A program made the translations under genes and the position numbers. Source: Hydrotalea sandarakina (GTDB lineage Bacteria > Bacteroidota > Bacteroidia > Chitinophagales > Chitinophagaceae). From it: a DNA stretch of 64,000 nucleotides. The stretch spans positions 124,001 to 188,000 of the forward strand of contig NZ_QKZV01000003.1 of assembly GCF_003254115.1 (NCBI RefSeq), written 5' to 3'. Shown piece by piece: positions 31,987-42,307 of this stretch. Below the pieces are notes generated by a model that was not told the origin of the DNA, searched no databases, and saw nothing but the letters and a program-made list of their open reading frames with translations. Within the stretch, counting starts at the first letter, position 1. Each line of letters opens with the position of its first letter.

Positions 31987-33531
31987 ATGAATAACTTACC
32001 TGCAATACAAGTTACCCATTTAAATATACAACAATATGGCATTACCATTTTGCAGGATATAAGTTTCACCATTCAAAAAGGCGAACACTTGTTCGTAACC
32101 GGAATGGCGGGCAGTGGAAAAACCACATTGGGTAAGGCTTTGGCTGCTAAAATATTTTTTAAAGGAAAAATTGCTTTTCCTGCATTTGAAAACGCTAATC
32201 AATTACCCGGAATAGTTTATATTGAGGATACTCACCAATGGAAAAACCTTACCAACCTTTCCGATTTTTATTACCAACAACGATACAATAGTTGTGATGC
32301 TGATGATAGTGAAACCATAGTACAACATTTAGCACATTACACACAACAATTAAATAATAACGGCAAGGACACCGAAAATTATTATGAGCTGTGCCAAAAA
32401 TTCAATTTGCTGCATCGTTTAGATACTCCGCTTATCCAACTTTCCAACGGAGAACAAAAAAAATTACAAATTATAAAATGCTTATTGCATGACCCCGAAA
32501 TTTTAATTGTTGATAATATTTTAACCGGATTAGACAAAGCAGCACAAAATACTTTATTACAACTTTTAGAAAAATATGCAATTAACGGTGTTACTATTGT
32601 GTACATAGGGAATGATAATATTGTTCCTAACTTTATAACACATGTACTGGAATTAAATGCGCAGAAAACAAGTAGGTATTTTTCTAAAGAAATGTACTTG
32701 CCGCAAAATGAACATCAAATCTTACCTAACTTTAAAAAGCTTTTAATTGCTAATCAATTGCCAACAAGTGAAACGAGGGTAATTGAAATGCAGGACACAA
32801 CTGTTATCTACGGTGATAAAAAAATTTTAGACAACATAAATTGGAATGTACGTACAGGTGAAAAATGGTTAATAAAAGGACATAATGGCGCAGGTAAATC
32901 TACCCTACTCAGCTTAATCAACGGTGATAATCCACAAGCTTATGCTAACGTTATTAAAATTTTTGGAACAAAAAGAGGTGGTGGTGAAAGCATCTGGGAT
33001 ATTAAAAAAAGAATTGGGTACATATCGCCCGAATTGCATAAATACTTCGACAAACAACTGAGTGTTGAAAAAACTATTGCATCCGGTTTTTTTGATACGA
33101 TGGGTGTATATAAAAAACTGAATGAAGTGCAAATACAAACCCTTAACACCATCATTCAAGAATTTCAATTAGAAAATGTAATACATAAACAATTAAGAGC
33201 ACTATCGTTTGGTATGCAACGTTGGGTGTTATTGGCAAGAACATTGGTAAAAAATCCCCCCCTACTTATTTTCGACGAACCTTGTCAGGGATTAGATGCC
33301 ACTTTCACAAAATTATTTTTAAATACCATACAACAAATTGCCGCTCAACAACCTACTACTACGCTACTGTATGTAACACATGTAGATGATGAAATTCCTG
33401 ATTGTATAAACAAGGTATTAATCTTACAAAACGGGAAAGCAAAAATTGAAGAAGCAAAAAAAATTCAAAATATAGAAAATAAAAAAATAATACATAGCAA
33501 CAGTTATTGTGTACAACATTTAAATGCTTAA
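31987..33531 (+). CDS. Tandem ABC ATPase, ModF-like
   Basis: The 514 residues contain two ATPase domains and no membrane segments. Domain 1 has Walker A GMAGSGKTT and signature LSNGEQ, but its Walker B reads ILIVDN, with Asn in place of the catalytic Glu. Domain 2 has Walker A GHNGAGKST, an altered signature LSFGMQ and intact Walker B LLIFDEP. The layout resembles ModF/PhrA-type soluble tandem ATPases, whose role is unclear; a transporter partner is not adjacent. It sits between leuA and leuB with 3-base gaps on both sides, clearly cotranscribed and probably translationally coupled, where leuC and leuD are often found. Confidence 0.85.
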   Translation: MNNLPAIQVTHLNIQQYGITILQDISFTIQKGEHLFVTGMAGSGKTTLGKALAAKIFFKGKIAFPAFENANQLPGIVYIEDTHQWKNLTNLSDFYYQQRYNSCDADDSETIVQHLAHYTQQLNNNGKDTENYYELCQKFNLLHRLDTPLIQLSNGEQKKLQIIKCLLHDPEILIVDNILTGLDKAAQNTLLQLLEKYAINGVTIVYIGNDNIVPNFITHVLELNAQKTSRYFSKEMYLPQNEHQILPNFKKLLIANQLPTSETRVIEMQDTTVIYGDKKILDNINWNVRTGEKWLIKGHNGAGKSTLLSLINGDNPQAYANVIKIFGTKRGGGESIWDIKKRIGYISPELHKYFDKQLSVEKTIASGFFDTMGVYKKLNEVQIQTLNTIIQEFQLENVIHKQLRALSFGMQRWVLLARTLVKNPPLLIFDEPCQGLDATFTKLFLNTIQQIAAQQPTTTLLYVTHVDDEIPDCINKVLILQNGKAKIEEAKKIQNIENKKIIHSNSYCVQHLNA

Positions 33532-34667: not shown

Positions 34668-34698
34668 TTTGTTCATTCAAATACAACAGGTATATTTG
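34668..34698 (+). promoter_or_regulatory. ilv operon promoter
   Basis: TTTG at 34668-34671 and TATATTTG at 34691-34698 are separated by exactly 19 bp, the best match to the Bacteroidota -33/-7 consensus in the window. Transcription would begin near 34705, 14 bases before the leader-peptide GTG. Confidence 0.75.
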
Positions 34699-34718
34699 TT
34701 CAATACAAAAAAATAACC

Positions 34719-34817
34719 GTGGCGAACAAATTACATAATGCAATTTTTAATAACAGCACTGCAATTATTGCTGTCATTATTATTGTCATTATTATACCTG
34801 TCTTCAGAGGAGGGTAG
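34719..34817 (+). CDS. Ile/Val-rich leader peptide of the ilv attenuator
   Basis: A 32-codon ORF with GTG start at 34719 and TAG stop at 34815-34817. Its second half encodes AIIAVIIIVIIIPVF, with eight Ile and three Val codons between 34764 and 34802. The stop codon overlaps the end of GAGGAGGGT (34807-34815), the presumed 5' arm of the antiterminator. A ribosome that reaches the stop would cover this arm; one stalled on the Ile/Val codons would leave it free. This is the classical geometry of amino-acid-controlled attenuators. The same DNA read from the ATG at 34738 gives a Leu-rich frame (11 Leu among the first 21 codons) that runs on to 34887. Confidence 0.8.
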   Translation: MANKLHNAIFNNSTAIIAVIIIVIIIPVFRGG

Positions 34818-34876
34818 TTTGTTTGTTTACAGCATTCATAAAACAATTCAACCCGCCTCAAAAAGGCGGGTTTTTT
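34807..34876 (+). promoter_or_regulatory. Transcription attenuator of the ilv operon (antiterminator/terminator)
   Basis: The terminator is a 9-bp stem (AACCCGCCT at 34850-34858, AGGCGGGTT at 34864-34872) with loop CAAAA and six T at 34871-34876. The competing antiterminator pairs GAGGAGGGT (34807-34815) with ACCCGCCTC (34851-34859): 8 of 9 positions pair, with one A/G mismatch. The two structures share the ACCCGCCT segment and exclude each other. A 6-bp stem ACAGCA/TGCTGT (34753-34758, 34769-34774) inside the leader could act as a pause hairpin. ilvE starts 24 bases after the T run. Confidence 0.8.
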
Positions 34877-34900
34877 ATTTCATATAAAACACAAAACACC

Positions 34901-35806
34901 ATGTATTATAACCAAAATACATTCATTTACTTCAATGGCAGCTACATAAAAGCGGCAGATGCAACTACTGATTTATATAGCCAAACCTTACATTATGGTT
35001 ATGGAGTTTTTGAGGGCATACGTTCTTATAAAACTGTAACCGGTCAAACTAAAATTTTTAAAGCTGAAGCTCATTTCGAAAGATTACGACAGTCGGCCTT
35101 AGCATTGAATTTACCTTATACTTACTCAGTTGAAGAATTAATTGAAGCCTCATACAAAGTACTAGCATTAAATGATTTACAAGATGCTTATATACGACCA
35201 TTGGTGTTTGCACCAGCTAATATGAGTTTTGCCAAAAATACTGTTTCACATATAGCTATTGAAGCATGGCGCATGGAGCCTTTCTTAGGTAACAAAATGT
35301 TGCGGGTAGTTACTTCGTCTTTTGAAAGACCTAATCCAAAAGCATTTCACATTCATGCAAAAGCAACAGGGCATTATGTTAATTCAATTTTAGCCAGCCA
35401 GGAAGCAAAACAAAAAGGGTTTGATGAAGCTTTATTGCTAGATATGCACGGTTACATTGCAGAAGCCCCGGGTGCCAATGTATTCTTCGAAAAAAATGGA
35501 ACACTCTTTACTCCCCAATTAGGAAATATATTACCCGGTATTACACGTGCCACAATTTTAGATTTATGCAGCGAATTAAACATTCCTGTTAAAGAAACCA
35601 AGCTGAAACTGGAAGATATATACCATGCTGATGCAGCTTTCTTTTGCGGCACTGCCGCTGAAGTAATTGGCATTGAATCTTTAGACAACAAGCCCTTTAC
35701 TAAGCCTTGGGCTGAAACCATTAGTAGACTGATTCAAACTTCTTACAAAAACTTAATTACCGAAAACCAAAAAACAATTTTAAACGAAGTATTAGGAACA
35801 GAATAA
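34901..35806 (+). CDS. ilvE: Branched-chain amino acid aminotransferase
   Basis: IlvE is a class IV PLP aminotransferase that makes Ile, Val and Leu from their 2-oxo acids with glutamate. The start is the ATG of MYYNQNTFIYFNGSYI (301 residues); the open frame upstream is the attenuator. Motifs: LHYGYGVFEGIRSYK, the PLP-lysine segment HAKATGHYVNS near residue 160, GFDEALLLDMHGYIAEAPGANVFF, and LPGITRATILDL. It is the first gene of ilvE-D-B-N-C-A, with 21 bases to ilvD. The glutamate it uses is made by GltBD, encoded further downstream. Confidence 0.94.
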   Translation: MYYNQNTFIYFNGSYIKAADATTDLYSQTLHYGYGVFEGIRSYKTVTGQTKIFKAEAHFERLRQSALALNLPYTYSVEELIEASYKVLALNDLQDAYIRPLVFAPANMSFAKNTVSHIAIEAWRMEPFLGNKMLRVVTSSFERPNPKAFHIHAKATGHYVNSILASQEAKQKGFDEALLLDMHGYIAEAPGANVFFEKNGTLFTPQLGNILPGITRATILDLCSELNIPVKETKLKLEDIYHADAAFFCGTAAEVIGIESLDNKPFTKPWAETISRLIQTSYKNLITENQKTILNEVLGTE

Positions 35807-35827: not shown

Positions 35828-37522
35828 ATGCAAAAAGAATTAAACAAATACAGCAAAACGCTTACTCAAGATGAAACACAACCGGCAGCACAAGCAATGT
35901 ATTATGCACTTGGCCTTAAAGAAGAAGATTTAAAAAAAGCGCAGGTAGGCATTGCCAGTATGGGATGGGATGGGAACCCTTGTAATATGCACTTGAATGA
36001 TATGGCTACTGTGGTGAAGAAAAGTGTTGATAACACTGAAGGTTTATTGGGTTTACGTTTTTATACTATTGGTGTTAGTGATGGTATTAGCATGGGAACA
36101 GATGGCATGCGTTATTCATTAGTGAGTCGCGATTTAATTGCCGATAGCATAGAAACCAATGCTGCCGCACAATATTACGATGCATTAATTACTATACCCG
36201 GTTGCGATAAAAATATGCCGGGTTCCATTATGGCTATGAGCCGTTTAAACCGTCCAAGTTTAATGATTTACGGAGGTACCATTGCTGCAGGCCATTATAA
36301 AGGCGAAGATTTAAATATTGTTTCTGCATTTGAAGCATTAGGGCAAAAAATTGCAGGAAAATTAAGTGAAGGAGATTTTAAGGGTATCATTCAGCATGCT
36401 TGCCCGGGAGCGGGTGCTTGCGGTGGCATGTATACCGCTAATACCATGGCTTCGGCCATTGAAGCATTGGGCATGAGTTTACCTTACTCATCTACTAACC
36501 CTGCTTTGAGTAATGACAAACAAAAAGAGTGTGAAGCAGCTGGAAAGGCTATTAAGCTTTTAATGGAAAAAGACATTAAACCTAGCGACATTATGACCCG
36601 CGAAGCTTTTGAAAATGCTGTAACAATCGTAATGGCATTAGGTGGAAGTACCAACGCCGTATTGCATCTTATTGCAATGGCTAAAACCATTGGTGTGCCT
36701 TTTACTATTAACGATTTCCAAAAAATAAGTGATAAAGTTCCTGTATTAGCTGATTTTAAACCCAGCGGAAAATATTTAATGGAAGATTTACATCAACACG
36801 GAGGTTTACCGGCTGTAATGAAATACTTATTGAAAAAAGGTTTTCTGCACGGTCAATGCCTAACCGTTACGGGTAAAACAGTAGCAGAAAATGCTGAGGA
36901 AGCAAGAGATTTAGATTTTGAAAAACAACAAGTAATTAAACCCGTTGAAACCCCTATTAAAGCAACGGGACACTTACAAATTTTATTTGGCAATTTGGCA
37001 AGTGAAGGTGCAGTAGCTAAAATTACCGGCAAAGAGGGTACTCATTTCAAAGGCCCAGCTCGTGTATTTAATGGTGAACATGATTTTATTAAAGGAATTG
37101 AAAACAAAGTAATTAAACCCGGCGATGTGGTCGTTATCCGATACATTGGCCCTAAAGGTGCACCGGGCATGCCCGAAATGTTGAAACCTACCAGTGCCAT
37201 TGTAGGGGCCGGCTTAGGGAAAAGTGTGGCTTTAATTACCGATGGCAGATTTAGTGGTGGTACACATGGTTTTGTGGTTGGCCACATTACACCCGAGGCA
37301 TTTACAGGAGGCCTATTGGCGTTAGTAGAAAATGATGATATTATTGAAATTGATGCCATTAAAAACACCATCAATTTATTGGTAGACGAAAAAACCATTG
37401 AAAGCAGAAAACAACAATGGAAACGCCCCGAATTAAAAGCCACAAAAGGAGTACTGTATAAATATATTCAATTGGTAAAATCAGCGTCTGAGGGCTGTGT
37501 TACCGATGAGCAAACCTTTTAA
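35828..37522 (+). CDS. ilvD: Dihydroxy-acid dehydratase
   Basis: IlvD dehydrates 2,3-dihydroxy-3-methyl(butanoate/pentanoate) to the 2-oxo acids of Val and Ile. The 564-residue protein has the iron-sulfur cysteines in [16 protein letters not shown] and [16 protein letters not shown]. It also has the family motifs [29 protein letters not shown] and [20 protein letters not shown], and near the C-terminus [22 protein letters not shown]. The length is full. The next gene, ilvB, starts 20 bases after its stop. Confidence 0.97.
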
Positions 37523-37542
37523 TCACAATAAAATATTTAATA

Positions 37543-39288
37543 ATGGATACTGTAATCACTGCACCTAATAAAACAGCTACATCAACACCTAAACCAACTG
37601 TTTCCATTTCAGGATCACAAGCGGTGTTAGATGCGTTATTAGCTGAAAATGCAACTACCATTTTTGGATATCCCGGGGGTGCAATTATGCCGATATATGA
37701 TGCTTTATACGATTATACCAACCAAATAAAGCATATATTGGTTCGCCACGAACAAGGCGCCATTCATGCAGCACAGGGCTATGCCCGCAGTTCGGGTAAA
37801 ACCGGTGTAGTATTTGCAACCAGTGGTCCTGGTGCCACTAATCTTGTTACCGGTTTAGCAGATGCAATGATAGATAGTACTCCGTTAGTGTGCATCACAG
37901 GCCAGGTATTTGCACATTTATTAGGAACAGATGCATTTCAGGAAGTGGATGTAATCAACATTACAACCCCGGTAACCAAATGGAATTATCAAATTACAGA
38001 CGCAACTGAAATACCGCATGTTTTAGCGAAGGCATTTTTTATTGCCGGCACCGGAAGACCGGGCCCTGTTTTAATTGATATTACCAAAAATGCGCAACTG
38101 CAAAAGTTTGAATACAGTGGTTACGAAAAATGTAATCACATAAGAAGTTACAGGCCCAAACCTATCATTAGAAAAAGTTATATAGAAGAAGCTGCGAAAG
38201 TGATTAATGAAGCCAAAAAACCATTCGTAATTTTTGGACAGGGTGTTATTTTAGGAAAGGCAGAACAGGAACTAAAAGCATTTATTGAAAAAGGAAATTT
38301 TCCCGCTGCATGGACTGTATTAGGTTTAAGCGCTTTACCAACAGAGCATCCCTTAAACATGGGTATGTTAGGCATGCATGGCAACTATGGACCAAATGTT
38401 TTAACCAATGAATGCGATGTGTTAATTGCGGTAGGAATGCGCTTCGACGATCGTGTTACCGGACGTTTAGATAAATACGCCAAACAAGCTAAAGTTATTC
38501 ATTTAGATATTGATCCTGCAGAAATTGATAAAAACGTTCAAACCACAGTTCCTGTTTGGGGCGATTGTAAGGAAACACTTCCCATGTTAACCCAACTCAT
38601 TCAACCCAATAACCACACAGCATGGATTAATCGTTTTCGCGAATATGCACAGCAGGAATATGATGTAGTTATTCAAAACGAATTAAATCCAACATCGCCA
38701 ATTATGACAATGGGTGAAGTAATTAAAACCTTGAATGAATTGACCAACGGCGATGCCATTGTTGTAACTGATGTTGGGCAACACCAAATGGTTGCCTGCC
38801 GCTATGCAAAATTCAATCAATCAAAAAGCAATATCACATCCGGCGGAGCTGGAACTATGGGCTTTGGCTTACCGGCAGCAATTGGTGCAAAATTTGGTGC
38901 ACCAAACAGAACCGTAGTAGCAATTATTGGCGACGGAGGATTTCAAATGACTTTACAGGAATTAGGTACCATCATGCAATTTAATGTTGATGTAAAAATT
39001 TTAATATTAAATAATGAGTTCTTGGGTATGGTACGTCAATGGCAACAGTTATTCCACGATAAAAGATATTCGTTTGTAGATATTACCAGCCCCAATTTCG
39101 TGCAACTTGCCAAAGCCTATCATATTGAAGGCAATAGCATTAAAGATAGAAGCCAATTGAAAAATGCGTTACAAACCATGTTAAACCACAAAGGGAGTTA
39201 TTTATTAGAAGTTATGGTAGGAAAAGAAAATAATGTATTCCCCATGGTTCCGCAAGGCTGCAGCGTAGCTGAAATTAGATTACAGTAA
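37543..39288 (+). CDS. ilvB: Acetolactate synthase large subunit
   Basis: A thiamine-diphosphate enzyme that makes acetolactate or acetohydroxybutyrate from pyruvate (and 2-oxobutyrate). The 581 residues include a short variable N-terminus, the PYR domain with GYPGGAIMPIYDAL and the catalytic Glu in VRHEQGAIHAAQGYAR, and the FAD/central domain (GMLGMHGNYGPN). The ThDP motif is GDGGFQMTLQELGTIMQFNVDVKILILNN from about residue 466, with EFLGMVRQWQQLF following. The regulatory subunit gene ilvN starts 21 bases downstream. Confidence 0.97.
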   Translation: MDTVITAPNKTATSTPKPTVSISGSQAVLDALLAENATTIFGYPGGAIMPIYDALYDYTNQIKHILVRHEQGAIHAAQGYARSSGKTGVVFATSGPGATNLVTGLADAMIDSTPLVCITGQVFAHLLGTDAFQEVDVINITTPVTKWNYQITDATEIPHVLAKAFFIAGTGRPGPVLIDITKNAQLQKFEYSGYEKCNHIRSYRPKPIIRKSYIEEAAKVINEAKKPFVIFGQGVILGKAEQELKAFIEKGNFPAAWTVLGLSALPTEHPLNMGMLGMHGNYGPNVLTNECDVLIAVGMRFDDRVTGRLDKYAKQAKVIHLDIDPAEIDKNVQTTVPVWGDCKETLPMLTQLIQPNNHTAWINRFREYAQQEYDVVIQNELNPTSPIMTMGEVIKTLNELTNGDAIVVTDVGQHQMVACRYAKFNQSKSNITSGGAGTMGFGLPAAIGAKFGAPNRTVVAIIGDGGFQMTLQELGTIMQFNVDVKILILNNEFLGMVRQWQQLFHDKRYSFVDITSPNFVQLAKAYHIEGNSIKDRSQLKNALQTMLNHKGSYLLEVMVGKENNVFPMVPQGCSVAEIRLQ

Positions 39289-39309
39289 TTGCATTTTAAA
39301 AATACAAAT

Positions 39310-39897
39310 ATGAAAAAGGAATATACCATAACCGTTTATACCGAAAATCAAATTGGCTTATTGAATAGAATTGCCATCATTTTTTCGCGTAGAAAAATTA
39401 ATATAGAAAGCTTAAACACTTCACCCTCTGAATCGGAAGGCATTCATCGCTTTACAATTCTAATTAATGAAACAGAGGAAGTGGTAAGAAAACTCTGCAG
39501 GCAAATTGAAAAACAAGTTGAAGTTTTAAAAGCATATTACAATACTGAGGATGAAATTGTATGGCAAGAACTAGCCATGTATAAAGTATCAACCGACGCA
39601 ATAGCTGAAAAAGTAAAAGTTGAAAGGCTACTACGTGAATATGGAGCCCGTGCAGTTGTAATTAGAAAAGATTATACAGTTTTTGAAACATCAGGTCATC
39701 GCGAAGAAACCGACCGCTTAATAAAAGTGTTAGAGCCGCATGGCTTAATTGAATTTGTTAGAAGTGCAAGGGTAGCCATCATTAAATCAAGCAATGGCTT
39801 CCACGAAAAATTAAAACAATTTGAGCAATTAGAACCCGGTGAAGAGGTAATTGAAAATGAATACCTGAGTAAACAGGCTGAAGTATTTTCTATGTAA
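39310..39897 (+). CDS. ilvN: Acetolactate synthase small (regulatory) subunit
   Basis: The 195-residue regulatory subunit. The ATG start gives MKKEYTITVYTENQIGLLNR; a TTG seven codons upstream is not used in this call. Residues of about 4-75 form an ACT domain (NQIGLLNRIAIIFSRRKINIESL) that binds valine in the family. The C-terminal domain (from about 80) has VERLLREYGARAVVIRKDYT and FETSGHREETDRLIKVLEPHG. It activates IlvB and imposes feedback inhibition. It is intact and close to ilvB (21 bases) and ilvC (47 bases). Confidence 0.95.
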   Translation: MKKEYTITVYTENQIGLLNRIAIIFSRRKINIESLNTSPSESEGIHRFTILINETEEVVRKLCRQIEKQVEVLKAYYNTEDEIVWQELAMYKVSTDAIAEKVKVERLLREYGARAVVIRKDYTVFETSGHREETDRLIKVLEPHGLIEFVRSARVAIIKSSNGFHEKLKQFEQLEPGEEVIENEYLSKQAEVFSM

Positions 39898-39944
39898 TAA
39901 ACCATTATACAAACAACCAACATTAAAAACTAAAAATTAGCAAA

Positions 39945-40991
39945 ATGGCAAAACTGAATTTTGGCGGCGTTGAAGAAAATGTAGTAACCCGCGAAGAATT
40001 TCCTCTTTCAAAAGCACAGGATGTATTGAAAAATGAAATTGTGGCTGTAATAGGATATGGCGTTCAAGGTCCCGGACAGGCTTTGAATATGCGCGACAAT
40101 GGCATTAACGTTATTGTAGGCCAGCGCAAAAATTCGAAAACGTGGGATAAAGCCATTGCCGATGGTTTTGTTCCCGGACAAACTTTGTTTGAAATTGAAG
40201 AGGCTTTACAAAAAGGCACCATTATTTGTTACCTGCTCAGCGATGCTGCTCAAATTGCTTTATGGCCAACCGTAAAAAAACACTTAACACCGGGGAAAGC
40301 ATTGTATTTTTCGCACGGCTTTGGTATTACTTTTAATGATCAAACCGGTATTGTTCCTCCTAAAGATGTGGATGTATTTTTAGTTGCCCCAAAAGGTTCC
40401 GGAACTTCATTAAGAAGAATGTTTTTACAAGGACGTGGCCTAAACAGCAGTTTTGCCATATACCAAGATGCTACAGGAAAAGCTAAAGAAAGAGTAATTG
40501 CTTTAGGCATTGCCGTTGGTAGTGGTTATTTATTTGAAACTGATTTCAGAAAAGAAGTATACAGCGATTTAACCGGTGAAAGAGGCACATTAATGGGTGC
40601 CATACAAGGCATATTTGCTGCACAATACCAGGTATTGCGCGATAAAGGCCATTCACCCAGTGAAGCATTTAATGAAACTGTTGAAGAACTTACCCAAAGT
40701 TTAATGCCTTTAGTTGCAGAAAATGGCATGGATTGGATGTATGCCAACTGTTCAACTACTGCACAACGGGGAGCACTTGACTGGTGGAAAAAATTCAGGG
40801 ATGCTACCGCACCTGTTTTTAAGGAATTATATGAAAGCGTTGCCAGTGGGAAAGAATCACAACGCTCCATTGATTCCAACAGTCAGCCTGATTACAGAGA
40901 AAAATTAGAAAAAGAATTACAAGAATTACGCGATAGCGAAATGTGGCAGGCCGGAAAAACTGTACGCAGTTTAAGGCCTGAAAATCAGTAA
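39945..40991 (+). CDS. ilvC: Ketol-acid reductoisomerase
   Basis: IlvC isomerises and reduces acetolactate to dihydroxyisovalerate. The 348-residue protein carries a Rossmann motif (VAVIGYGVQGPGQALNMRDN) with GYGVQG near residue 37, QRKNSKTWDKA in the NADPH loop, and LFSHGFGIT-like catalytic surroundings (YFSHGFGITF). The magnesium-binding segment is TDFRKEVYSDLTGERG, and ANCSTTAQRGALDWW is near 260. The length places it in the short class I group. A strong hairpin sits between this gene and ilvA. Confidence 0.96.
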   Translation: MAKLNFGGVEENVVTREEFPLSKAQDVLKNEIVAVIGYGVQGPGQALNMRDNGINVIVGQRKNSKTWDKAIADGFVPGQTLFEIEEALQKGTIICYLLSDAAQIALWPTVKKHLTPGKALYFSHGFGITFNDQTGIVPPKDVDVFLVAPKGSGTSLRRMFLQGRGLNSSFAIYQDATGKAKERVIALGIAVGSGYLFETDFRKEVYSDLTGERGTLMGAIQGIFAAQYQVLRDKGHSPSEAFNETVEELTQSLMPLVAENGMDWMYANCSTTAQRGALDWWKKFRDATAPVFKELYESVASGKESQRSIDSNSQPDYREKLEKELQELRDSEMWQAGKTVRSLRPENQ

Positions 40992-41004
40992 TAAAATGTG
41001 TGTC

Positions 41005-41036
41005 AAGATGATGGTGTAGCGTTACACCATCATCTT
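41005..41036 (+). repeat. Strong hairpin between ilvC and ilvA
   Basis: A perfect 14-bp stem (AAGATGATGGTGTA at 41005-41018, TACACCATCATCTT at 41023-41036) with GCGT loop. Only three T follow before a run of A, so it is a poor intrinsic terminator. It could reduce read-through into ilvA or protect the ilvE-C message from 3' decay. Confidence 0.7.
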
Positions 41037-41053
41037 TAAAAAAAATTGTGGCA

Positions 41054-42307
41054 ATGCAGGTTCAGGAAAAAATAGAGGTATTCAATTTTCAAGAGGCTTA
41101 TCAAAAACTAAAGCAGGTAGTAGTAAAAACACCACTACAATACAATGAAGTTTTATCAAAACAATACCATTGCAAAATATTTCTTAAACGCGAAGATTTG
41201 CAAATCGTTCGTTCCTACAAAATTCGCGGCGCATATAATTTACTAAACAGCATTCCTACACAACAATTACAAAAAGGCGTTGTATGTGCAAGCGCCGGTA
41301 ACCACGCACAGGGCTTTGCGTATAGCTGCAAATACCTGGGCATTAAAGGTGTAATTTTTATGCCGATAATCACACCCAAACAAAAAATTAATCAAACTAA
41401 AATGTTTGGGGAGGATGCAATTGAAATTATTTTAACGGGTGATACTTTTGATGATTGTGCCGCAGCCGCACAAGAATATACCTTACAACACGGAATGACC
41501 TTCATTCCCCCATTCGATGATTTTAAAATTATTGAAGGACAAGCAACAGTGGGAATGGAAATTCTGGAGGAATTGCACTTAATTGATTATTTGTTTTTAC
41601 CCGTTGGGGGCGGTGGATTAGCCGCAGGTGTTGGCAGCTATTTCCAAAGGCAAGCACCTCAAACAAAAATTATAGGTGTTGAACCAGAAGGGGCTCCATC
41701 CATGACACGAGCTTTTGAATGCGGTTATCCGGTTGCCTTACCAACTATTGACCGATTTGTAGATGGTGCTGCCGTTAAAAAAGTGGGTAATCTTACCTAC
41801 CCCATTTGTAAATCAACACTTTCAGAACTATGCCTGGTTCCCGAAGGAAAAGTGTGTACCACAATTTTAAATTTATACAACCAAAACGCCATTGTTGCAG
41901 AACCCGCCGGCGCTTTAAGTATTGCTGCATTAGATGCATTTGCAGACCAAATTAAAAACAAAACCGTTGTTTGCATTATTAGCGGAGGCAACAATGATAT
42001 TGACCGAATGCCCGAAATAAAAGAAAGGGCTTTGCAATTTGAAGGTTTAAAACATTATTTCTTAATACAATTTGCACAACGTCCCGGTGCACTCAGAGAA
42101 TTTTTAAACGATGTGCTGGGTAAAAACGATGACATTACCCGCTTTGAATACATGCAAAAAACCAATAAAGAAAAAGGTCCTGCATTGGTAGGCATTGAAT
42201 TAAGTAATCGTAACGATTATACCGCACTTATTCAACGCATGCAACAACATCAAATAGATTTTACGGAAATTAATAAACAAAACACACTTTTTAGCTATCT
42301 TATCTAA
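41054..42307 (+). CDS. ilvA: Threonine dehydratase (biosynthetic)
   Basis: IlvA deaminates threonine to 2-oxobutyrate, the entry to isoleucine. The start is the ATG at 41054 (417 residues); a GTG two codons upstream is possible. The PLP-lysine motif is IVRSYKIRGAYNLL near residue 55, ASAGNHAQGFAYSCK follows, and the glycine-rich phosphate loop is LPVGGGGLAAGVG. The last 80-90 residues (KHYFLIQFAQRPGALREFL) form one ACT-like domain, as in the short biosynthetic type. It links ThrABC, 15 kb away in the same window, with the ilv pathway. Confidence 0.95.
   Translation: MQVQEKIEVFNFQEAYQKLKQVVVKTPLQYNEVLSKQYHCKIFLKREDLQIVRSYKIRGAYNLLNSIPTQQLQKGVVCASAGNHAQGFAYSCKYLGIKGVIFMPIITPKQKINQTKMFGEDAIEIILTGDTFDDCAAAAQEYTLQHGMTFIPPFDDFKIIEGQATVGMEILEELHLIDYLFLPVGGGGLAAGVGSYFQRQAPQTKIIGVEPEGAPSMTRAFECGYPVALPTIDRFVDGAAVKKVGNLTYPICKSTLSELCLVPEGKVCTTILNLYNQNAIVAEPAGALSIAALDAFADQIKNKTVVCIISGGNNDIDRMPEIKERALQFEGLKHYFLIQFAQRPGALREFLNDVLGKNDDITRFEYMQKTNKEKGPALVGIELSNRNDYTALIQRMQQHQIDFTEINKQNTLFSYLI

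Follow-up and report, generated by a model that had tools for sequence, protein, structure and literature searches.

The intergenic stretch between leuB and ilvE in the window (the whole 64-kb stretch of DNA that was analysed) very probably carries a ribosome-mediated transcription attenuator of ilvEDBNCA, which would read the supply of charged isoleucine and valine tRNA; this reading relies on sequence comparison and on predicted folding. An earlier note, made from the letters of the window, had proposed a switch of this kind, and the parts that it named (promoter, leader ORF, arm and terminator) all lie where it placed them, correct to the base. Its interpretation is now supported by the conservation of the leader codons, by both stems, by the promoter boxes, and by ilvE or ilvD as the next gene in 106 of 107 related loci.

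Parts of the probable switch, its promoter and its relatives

According to NCBIfam matches, the genes follow each other in the order leuA (30787), an ABC ATPase gene, leuB (33535), ilvE, ilvD, ilvB, ilvN, ilvC, and ilvA, of which the last six would constitute one operon (Table 1). The ABC ATPase is a two-domain protein encoded at 31987-33531, between leuA and leuB, with ModF as its best NCBIfam match, below the cut-off; a homologue is also found upstream of leuB in two other genomes (G064 and G178).

Table 1. Features of the putative attenuator and of the genes that follow it (positions in the window).
Feature	Position	Strand	Basis
-33 promoter box, TTTG	34668-34671	+	sequence; box kept in relatives
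-7 promoter box, TATATTTG, TAnnTTTG type	34691-34698	+	sequence; box kept in relatives
Leader peptide ORF, GTG start, 32 codons and TAG, MANKLHNAIFNNSTAIIAVIIIVIIIPVFRGG	34719-34817	+	sequence; equivalent ORF in 107/107 model matches
Regulatory Ile/Val codon block, 8 Ile and 3 Val	34764-34802	+	sequence; consensus in 107 genomes
ACCTGTCTT, possible outer antiterminator helix with terminator 3' arm	34796-34804	+	minimum-energy fold of 34777-34872
Antiterminator 5' arm, GAGGAGGGT	34807-34815	+	pairs with 34851-34859; arm/terminator covariation in 107 genomes
Terminator 5' arm, AACCCGCCT, shared with antiterminator (34851-34859)	34850-34858	+	predicted fold; compensatory changes
ACCCGCCTC, partner segment of the arm GAGGAGGGT	34851-34859	+	sequence
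Terminator 3' arm, AGGCGGGTT, and T tract	34864-34876	+	predicted fold; T tract 34871-34876
ilvE, first gene 3' of the switch	34901-35806	+	NCBIfam matches; ATG start at 34901
ilvD, ilvB, ilvN, ilvC, ilvA, collinear	35828-42307	+	NCBIfam matches

In the proposed mechanism, transcription would begin about 15 nt upstream of the leader ORF, a start suggested by the promoter boxes, which would leave a leader 5' UTR of about 12-15 nt. When isoleucine and valine are plentiful, the ribosome would reach the leader stop codon and cover the GGAGG-type arm; the RNA at 34850-34872 would then fold as a terminator, RNA polymerase would halt, and the 3' end of the transcript is expected near 34876. When Ile-tRNA or Val-tRNA is short, the ribosome would wait in the run of Ile and Val codons, the arm would be free to pair with the 5' half of the terminator, and polymerase would read through into ilvE.

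A first comparison of ilvE neighbourhoods covered 24 loci, 11 of which (the window's included) show the same attenuator plan. Among these 24, the attenuator is absent from ten Sphingobacterium loci and from L047, and leuB abuts ilvE in two others (L004 and L036). The family is taken as Chitinophagaceae-like from a single named relative, L036, with 66% IlvE identity. In a Cyclobacteriaceae MAG (L037) and a Bacteroidia MAG (L049), the stem sequences differ and still pair when matched by eye. A covariance model of 129 positions (R1), built from 11 loci, was run against 195 genomes of the family to which the window belongs. Some match is found in 146 of them at E <= 0.01, and one strong match each in 107, the window's genome included, at E <= 6.8e-7. 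The strong match in the window's genome is the window's own locus (E 3.6e-23), and 36 weaker ones, of at most 28.7 bits, appear there at E up to 10.

The two promoter boxes are separated by 19 bases, as the earlier note had described. An exact 6/6 match to the TAnnTTTG box occurs in 40 of the 107 genomes, compared with about 6 in shuffles, with the consensus TATATT(T/C)G and TATATTCG as a common variant among relatives. In 86 of the 105 genomes with a box matching at least 5/6, it starts 23-29 nt before the leader start (for G061, the automatic start codon lay too far upstream and the homologous TTG was taken for the promoter analysis). Exact TTTG is located 17-22 nt before the second box in 65/107 genomes, versus about 4 in shuffles. 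A scan for sigma-70 type promoters does not list the attenuator promoter, as expected of a promoter of another type; the boxes kept in relatives agree with the TAnnTTTG -7 box reported for Flavobacterium psychrophilum (PMC9723704).

Two predicted exclusive stems and the untranslated state

The predicted terminator, which spans 34850-34872 between the leader and ilvE, is a perfect 9-bp stem (-15.5 kcal/mol, z -5.2) that runs into six T, as previously claimed, and the region 34690-34900 folds with a z of -4.96. In the alignment of 11 loci, 96% of the cells are paired and seven of the nine pairs have changed on both sides, and none of 500 shuffles reaches either value; since the window's own sequence served to draw the structure, the comparison with slid controls is biased in part by construction.

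The antiterminator relies on the arm GAGGAGGGT, whose last T is the first base of the leader stop codon (a one-base overlap), and on the matching segment ACCCGCCTC, shared with the terminator. Both had been pointed out from the window's sequence, and eight of their nine positions pair, with one A/G mismatch. This pairing was examined in the 107 genomes by swapping: each leader end was paired as well as possible with the terminator 5' half of its own genome, and the score was compared with those obtained for the 5' halves of other genomes. The sum over own pairs is 2191.5, against a permuted mean of 2062 (sd 18, maximum 2130.5), and none of 2000 permutations is as high; on the 10-nt core of the arm, the values are 2076.5 against 1963 (sd 13; 0/2000). 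In single genomes, the effect is small (the own terminator scores above the mean of the swaps in 78/107, with a median rank of 59 of 107, ties counted against), because most genomes share GGAGGTGG with CCGCCTCC. The signal comes from altered pairs, for instance GGAAGTGG with CCACTTCC (G018 and G116) or GGAGGTG with CACCTCC (G172). As the arms were assigned automatically, the GGAGG arm was missed in a few genomes (e.g., G112); beyond the 107, re-matched arms were recognised by eye at L037 and L049, and in G030, G054, and G124. Conservation of GGAGG for contact with the anti-Shine-Dalgarno sequence of the ribosome was also considered, an explanation weakened by joint changes in arm and terminator (GGAAG with CTTCC).

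The position of the arm is also preserved. The last Ile/Val codon lies 11-12 nt before it in 69/107 genomes (range 2-22), which is about what the footprint of a ribosome stalled on the last codon of the block would leave free. In the window, the last Ile codon of the block (34794-34796), after which come a Pro codon and one Val codon, ends 10 nt before the arm. The distance from the start of the arm to the stop codon is 0-24 nt in the 107 genomes, short enough for a ribosome terminating there to cover the arm wholly or for the most part. The arm is placed where a ribosome at the stop codon would cover it and a ribosome stalled in the block would not. An outer helix of the antiterminator, between ACCTGTCTT and the 3' arm of the terminator, is suggested by the predicted fold; its pairing (CCTGC with GCGGG) exceeds that of shuffled segments (12.5 versus 11.0, in 75/107), and no covariation was detected for it across the 107 genomes (z 0.54).

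Equilibrium folding of the window RNA gives a terminator probability of 0.96 with the ribosome at the stop codon and of 0.01 with the ribosome in the middle of the block, and in 101/107 genomes the value for the stalled ribosome is below that for the ribosome at the stop. Nevertheless, the stalled-state mean over the 107 genomes is 0.64, and no more than 38 of them have a value under 0.5. On equilibrium folding alone, many relatives would have a weak switch, and kinetic trapping must be assumed for these.

Enteric attenuators possess a protector stem, and super-attenuation by this stem is a trait of enteric leaders. A variant compatible with the attenuator described here would comprise three hairpins, with a true protector (1:2) stem causing termination whenever the leader is left untranslated. 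This variant deserves consideration but is on balance doubtful. It is favoured by the behaviour of the untranslated leader, which prefers the terminator at equilibrium (P 0.96 in the window, mean 0.89 in the 107 genomes), and does so slightly more than codon-shuffled versions (0.891 versus 0.872, greater in 83/107; Wilcoxon p 6e-8). However, no covariation is seen between the arm and the preceding 42 nt (1205 versus 1211, sd 15, with 1345 of 2000 permutations at least as high), their pairing is no stronger than with shuffled sequence (11.26 versus 11.75), and the probability that the arm pairs with the leader is 0.795, against 0.783 after codon shuffling (higher in 67/107). A dedicated protector stem is, therefore, unsupported by covariation; from these comparisons, a weak and diffuse protector may exist.

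The leader and its gene neighbourhood in the family

The 32-codon leader had been singled out for its block of eight Ile and three Val codons, which is present as described, with one further Ile before it. A segment so dense in Ile and Val is unique in the window on both strands (10 or more Ile/Val per 12 codons, among stop-to-stop frames of 12-75 aa), and none of 20,000 mononucleotide shuffles of 34700-34900 contains an equally dense one. All 107 model matches encode an Ile/Val-rich leader, scoring at least 8 in the best 12-codon window (Ile and Val counted as 1, Leu as 0.5), although the covariance model was trained on the leader, so that the leader content of its matches is not independent evidence, whereas gene context and arm swapping are. 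A typical leader reads xIIIVVVIIIPALHGGG, with a block consensus of roughly IIIVVVIII, and the 16 codons preceding the arm region comprise 39% Ile, 27% Val, and 6% Leu over the 107 genomes. The median length is 33 aa, and the start chosen automatically is ATG in 103/107; a non-ATG start (TTG) occupies the same place in G143, which belongs to the same genus as the window, and in L033 and L034. Within the window's leader, a 24-nt imperfect inverted repeat (75% complementary) at 34735-34792 extends over the codon block; it could form a pause hairpin, in which the arm is not involved.

The block is maintained as codons rather than as mere sequence. In the last ten codons of the block, 0.84 of the codon differences involve position 3, 0.65 position 1, and only 0.19 position 2, those at position 1 being exchanges between Ile and Val. 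Over the last 20 codons before the arm, the Ile/Val frame is free of stops in 107/107 genomes, while a stop occurs in frame +1 in 94 and in frame +2 in 75; the absence of stops is partly due to construction, as the frame was picked for its Ile/Val content, which affects the contrast between codon positions less. The earlier note had looked to relatives for Ile/Val codons kept as codons and for covariation in both stems, and had taken relatives devoid of the leader codons or of both stems as evidence against its reading. Both expectations are borne out: the codon differences fall mostly at positions 3 and 1, the leader is found in 107/107 matches, and compensatory change appears in the terminator (by alignment) and in the antiterminator (by swapping).

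Once the matches are oriented, ilvE is the next gene in 70 of the 107 genomes, and ilvD in 36. The sole exception (L124, in G004) precedes a lone gene for a 98-aa ACT-domain protein (Pfam ACT_5), presumably of the type that acetolactate synthase small subunits contain; ilvE and ilvD are located elsewhere in that genome. ilvD was detected in 130 of the 195 family genomes (E <= 1e-100), and the switch is present in 103 of these, compared with 4 of the 65 in which ilvD was not detected. In these four, ilvD was probably cut off, because the match precedes ilvE within 1.2 kb of a contig end. Among the 27 genomes with ilvD and no strong match, about 2.6 kb upstream of ilvD was inspected in 20, and seven were left out. 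Divergent attenuators were found in three of the 20 (G030, G054, and G124), with re-matched arms such as GGGAAAA with TTTTCCC. No attenuator was recognised in the other 17, several of which have leuB directly before ilvD or ilvE; the switch is, thus, dispensable.

Another reading holds that the hairpin merely serves the leu genes before it as their 3' terminator, and that the short ORF arose by chance. leuB indeed lies upstream of 86 of the 107 matches (and leuA of one), and a terminator after leuB would be plausible. However, the promoter boxes sit between leuB and the terminator, neither leu gene was detected in the upstream flank examined at 20 of the 107 matches, and chance explains neither the conservation of the leader codons nor the covariation between arm and terminator, which makes this reading highly improbable.

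It is just as hard to believe that the operative leader is a second, Leu-rich ORF (ATG 34738, LLLSLLLSLLYL), which overlaps the Ile/Val leader in another frame and would make the switch a sensor of leucine. In the one genome of the window, this ORF starts with ATG and contains a stretch of 14 codons, 10 of which are for Leu. Its frame is interrupted in 94/107 genomes, against none for the Ile/Val frame, and its stop codon in the window's genome lies beyond the terminator stem, a geometry unfit for attenuation. The Leu-rich frame was, therefore, rejected as the leader, and its interruption in relatives indicates a by-product.

Finally, a ligand riboswitch or a T-box in place of a translated leader, which the length of the structured region and the status of BCAA operons as T-box targets in Firmicutes might suggest, has almost nothing left to recommend it, given that conservation is codon-like, that Rfam, at gathering scores, matches nothing in the window but a tRNA elsewhere, and that the 31 Rfam matches at E up to 10 include Phe, Trp, Leu, and Thr leaders far below cut-off and no T-box. 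None of the Rfam leader families (Leu_leader, Thr_leader, Trp_leader, and Phe_leader) attains the gathering score, the best being Phe_leader, with 25.8 bits for a cut-off of 55.

Related leaders in Bacteroidota and known systems

The attenuator model also detects loci outside the family. In a set of 296 genomes spread over the phylum, 63 match at E <= 0.001, six of them in the window's own family, and the best matches of 24 of the 57 other matching genomes were classified. Sixteen of these 24 loci precede BCAA genes (ilvE in nine, ilvD in one, genes resembling the acetolactate synthase small subunit in four, and ilvA in two), four precede hisG and contain runs of His codons, and one, with a Met-rich leader, precedes a Cys/Met PLP enzyme. 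The remaining three (L208, L212, and L219) have no amino-acid gene and are probably false matches. Ile-rich leaders before acetolactate synthase small-subunit-like genes or ilvA occur in other Bacteroidota families (L196, L200, L203, L209, L211, and L213), so one genome may hold several BCAA attenuators.

The four hisG-type loci encode a relative (56-64% identity) of the HisG of the window's own genome; the Pfam model misses three of these four short HisG fragments and scores the fourth below cut-off. Within the window's family, the 450 nt that precede the match to the HisG domain contain a His-rich short ORF at 25 of 30 hisG loci, a count obtained with a loose threshold (4 of 10 codons) and no background control; one of the five loci that lack it had only 48 nt to scan. 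A terminator-like hairpin follows the His-rich ORF in 25/25. The window's genome itself has such a locus (L227, G000:C1 near 375231), where the His leader MKLTHSHIHHHSMPSR precedes hisG and the arm GGTAAGC matches the terminator sequence GCTTACC. The same uncontrolled scan finds a Met-rich leader at 7 of 23 loci of metY (the O-acetylhomoserine sulfhydrylase gene) in another Bacteroidota family (f16), namely L250 (the same place as L217), L253, L257, L264, L265, L266, and L269, several of them also with Cys (e.g., MNKIKNIMPVNIMMCMCMMMRMSAHKRGGPV); no terminator was recognised for two of the seven. These metY leaders possibly constitute a sulphur-amino-acid attenuator.

The anatomy of the window's switch can be compared with that of the enterobacterial ilv, leu, thr, his, and trp attenuators, some of which are represented in Rfam (Leu_leader, RF00512; Thr_leader, RF00506; Trp_leader, RF00513). 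Common to both are a short leader with codons for the end product, a terminator before the first gene, and a mutually exclusive antiterminator. Unlike the enterobacterial leaders, the window's has a TTTG / TAnnTTTG promoter, few Leu codons before the arm, no conserved protector stem that could be found, and no covariance relation with them above threshold.

Attenuators before ilv genes are also described in Actinobacteria. That of Corynebacterium glutamicum ilvBNC likewise comprises a leader before ilv genes, a terminator, and an antiterminator, but its three hairpins (terminator, antiterminator, and anti-antiterminator) are supported by mutations, whereas the third lacks covariation support in the window (PMC11857589). 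Actinobacterial ilvB leaders also offer runs of Ile and Val codons before ilv genes with a terminator, to which Leu codons are added; their leader ORF overlaps the terminator, in a mode called unclear (PMC1262725), while here it ends at the arm, 13-39 nt before the terminator stem. Proteobacteria and Actinobacteria account for most documented cases of leader-peptide attenuation. A survey of 2010 states that, to its knowledge, such systems had not been shown outside these two phyla, the atypical ermC leader aside, before the survey itself added Bacilli (PMC2965389).

In Bacteroidota, the scarcity of described cases that the earlier note had suspected fits the literature searched, which contains two hints. 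The transcriptome of F. psychrophilum gave 'strong clues' for leader-peptide attenuation before amino-acid operons, with a structured 5' element named before hisG and no ilv case in the main text (PMC9723704). In Bacteroides thetaiotaomicron, of the same phylum too, short ORFs in long 5' UTRs are 'reminiscent of leader peptides', the example given preceding a hypothetical protein, with no mention of ilv found in the text available (PMC7366714). A search of a paper on runaway transcription yielded nothing on Bacteroidota or attenuation (PMC13323073). No description of an ilv leader in Bacteroidota was found in the openly accessible main texts searched. The work of Lopatovskaya (2010) reportedly may cover Bacteroidetes, and no priority is, therefore, claimed for the class. 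The window's attenuator is very probably a switch of classical type, common to most relatives with ilv genes and little described in Bacteroidota, with hints of precedent in Flavobacterium (PMC9723704).

A broader reading can be put forward tentatively, with belief and doubt almost in balance and doubt slightly ahead: Bacteroidota would run attenuators phylum-wide, with Ile/Val leaders before ilvE, ilvD, ilvA, and acetolactate synthase small-subunit genes, His leaders before hisG, and Met-rich leaders, often with Cys, before metY. Those of the window's family would use a strong Shine-Dalgarno-like GGAGG sequence as the arm and dispense with a dedicated protector hairpin. Bacteroidota mRNAs are reported to lack Shine-Dalgarno sequences (PMC6847099); as they do not rely on this signal, the phylum would be free to use a GGAGG arm. 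If this broader reading is true, Bacteroidota must keep a close coupling between ribosomes and RNA polymerase.

A single switch is, in any case, conserved in a large share of the genomes of one Bacteroidota family. Because RNA polymerase has to be paced by the ribosome in the proposed mechanism, transcription-translation coupling becomes testable in this phylum, and the set of switches would provide natural amino-acid reporters in bacteria whose mRNAs have no Shine-Dalgarno sequences.
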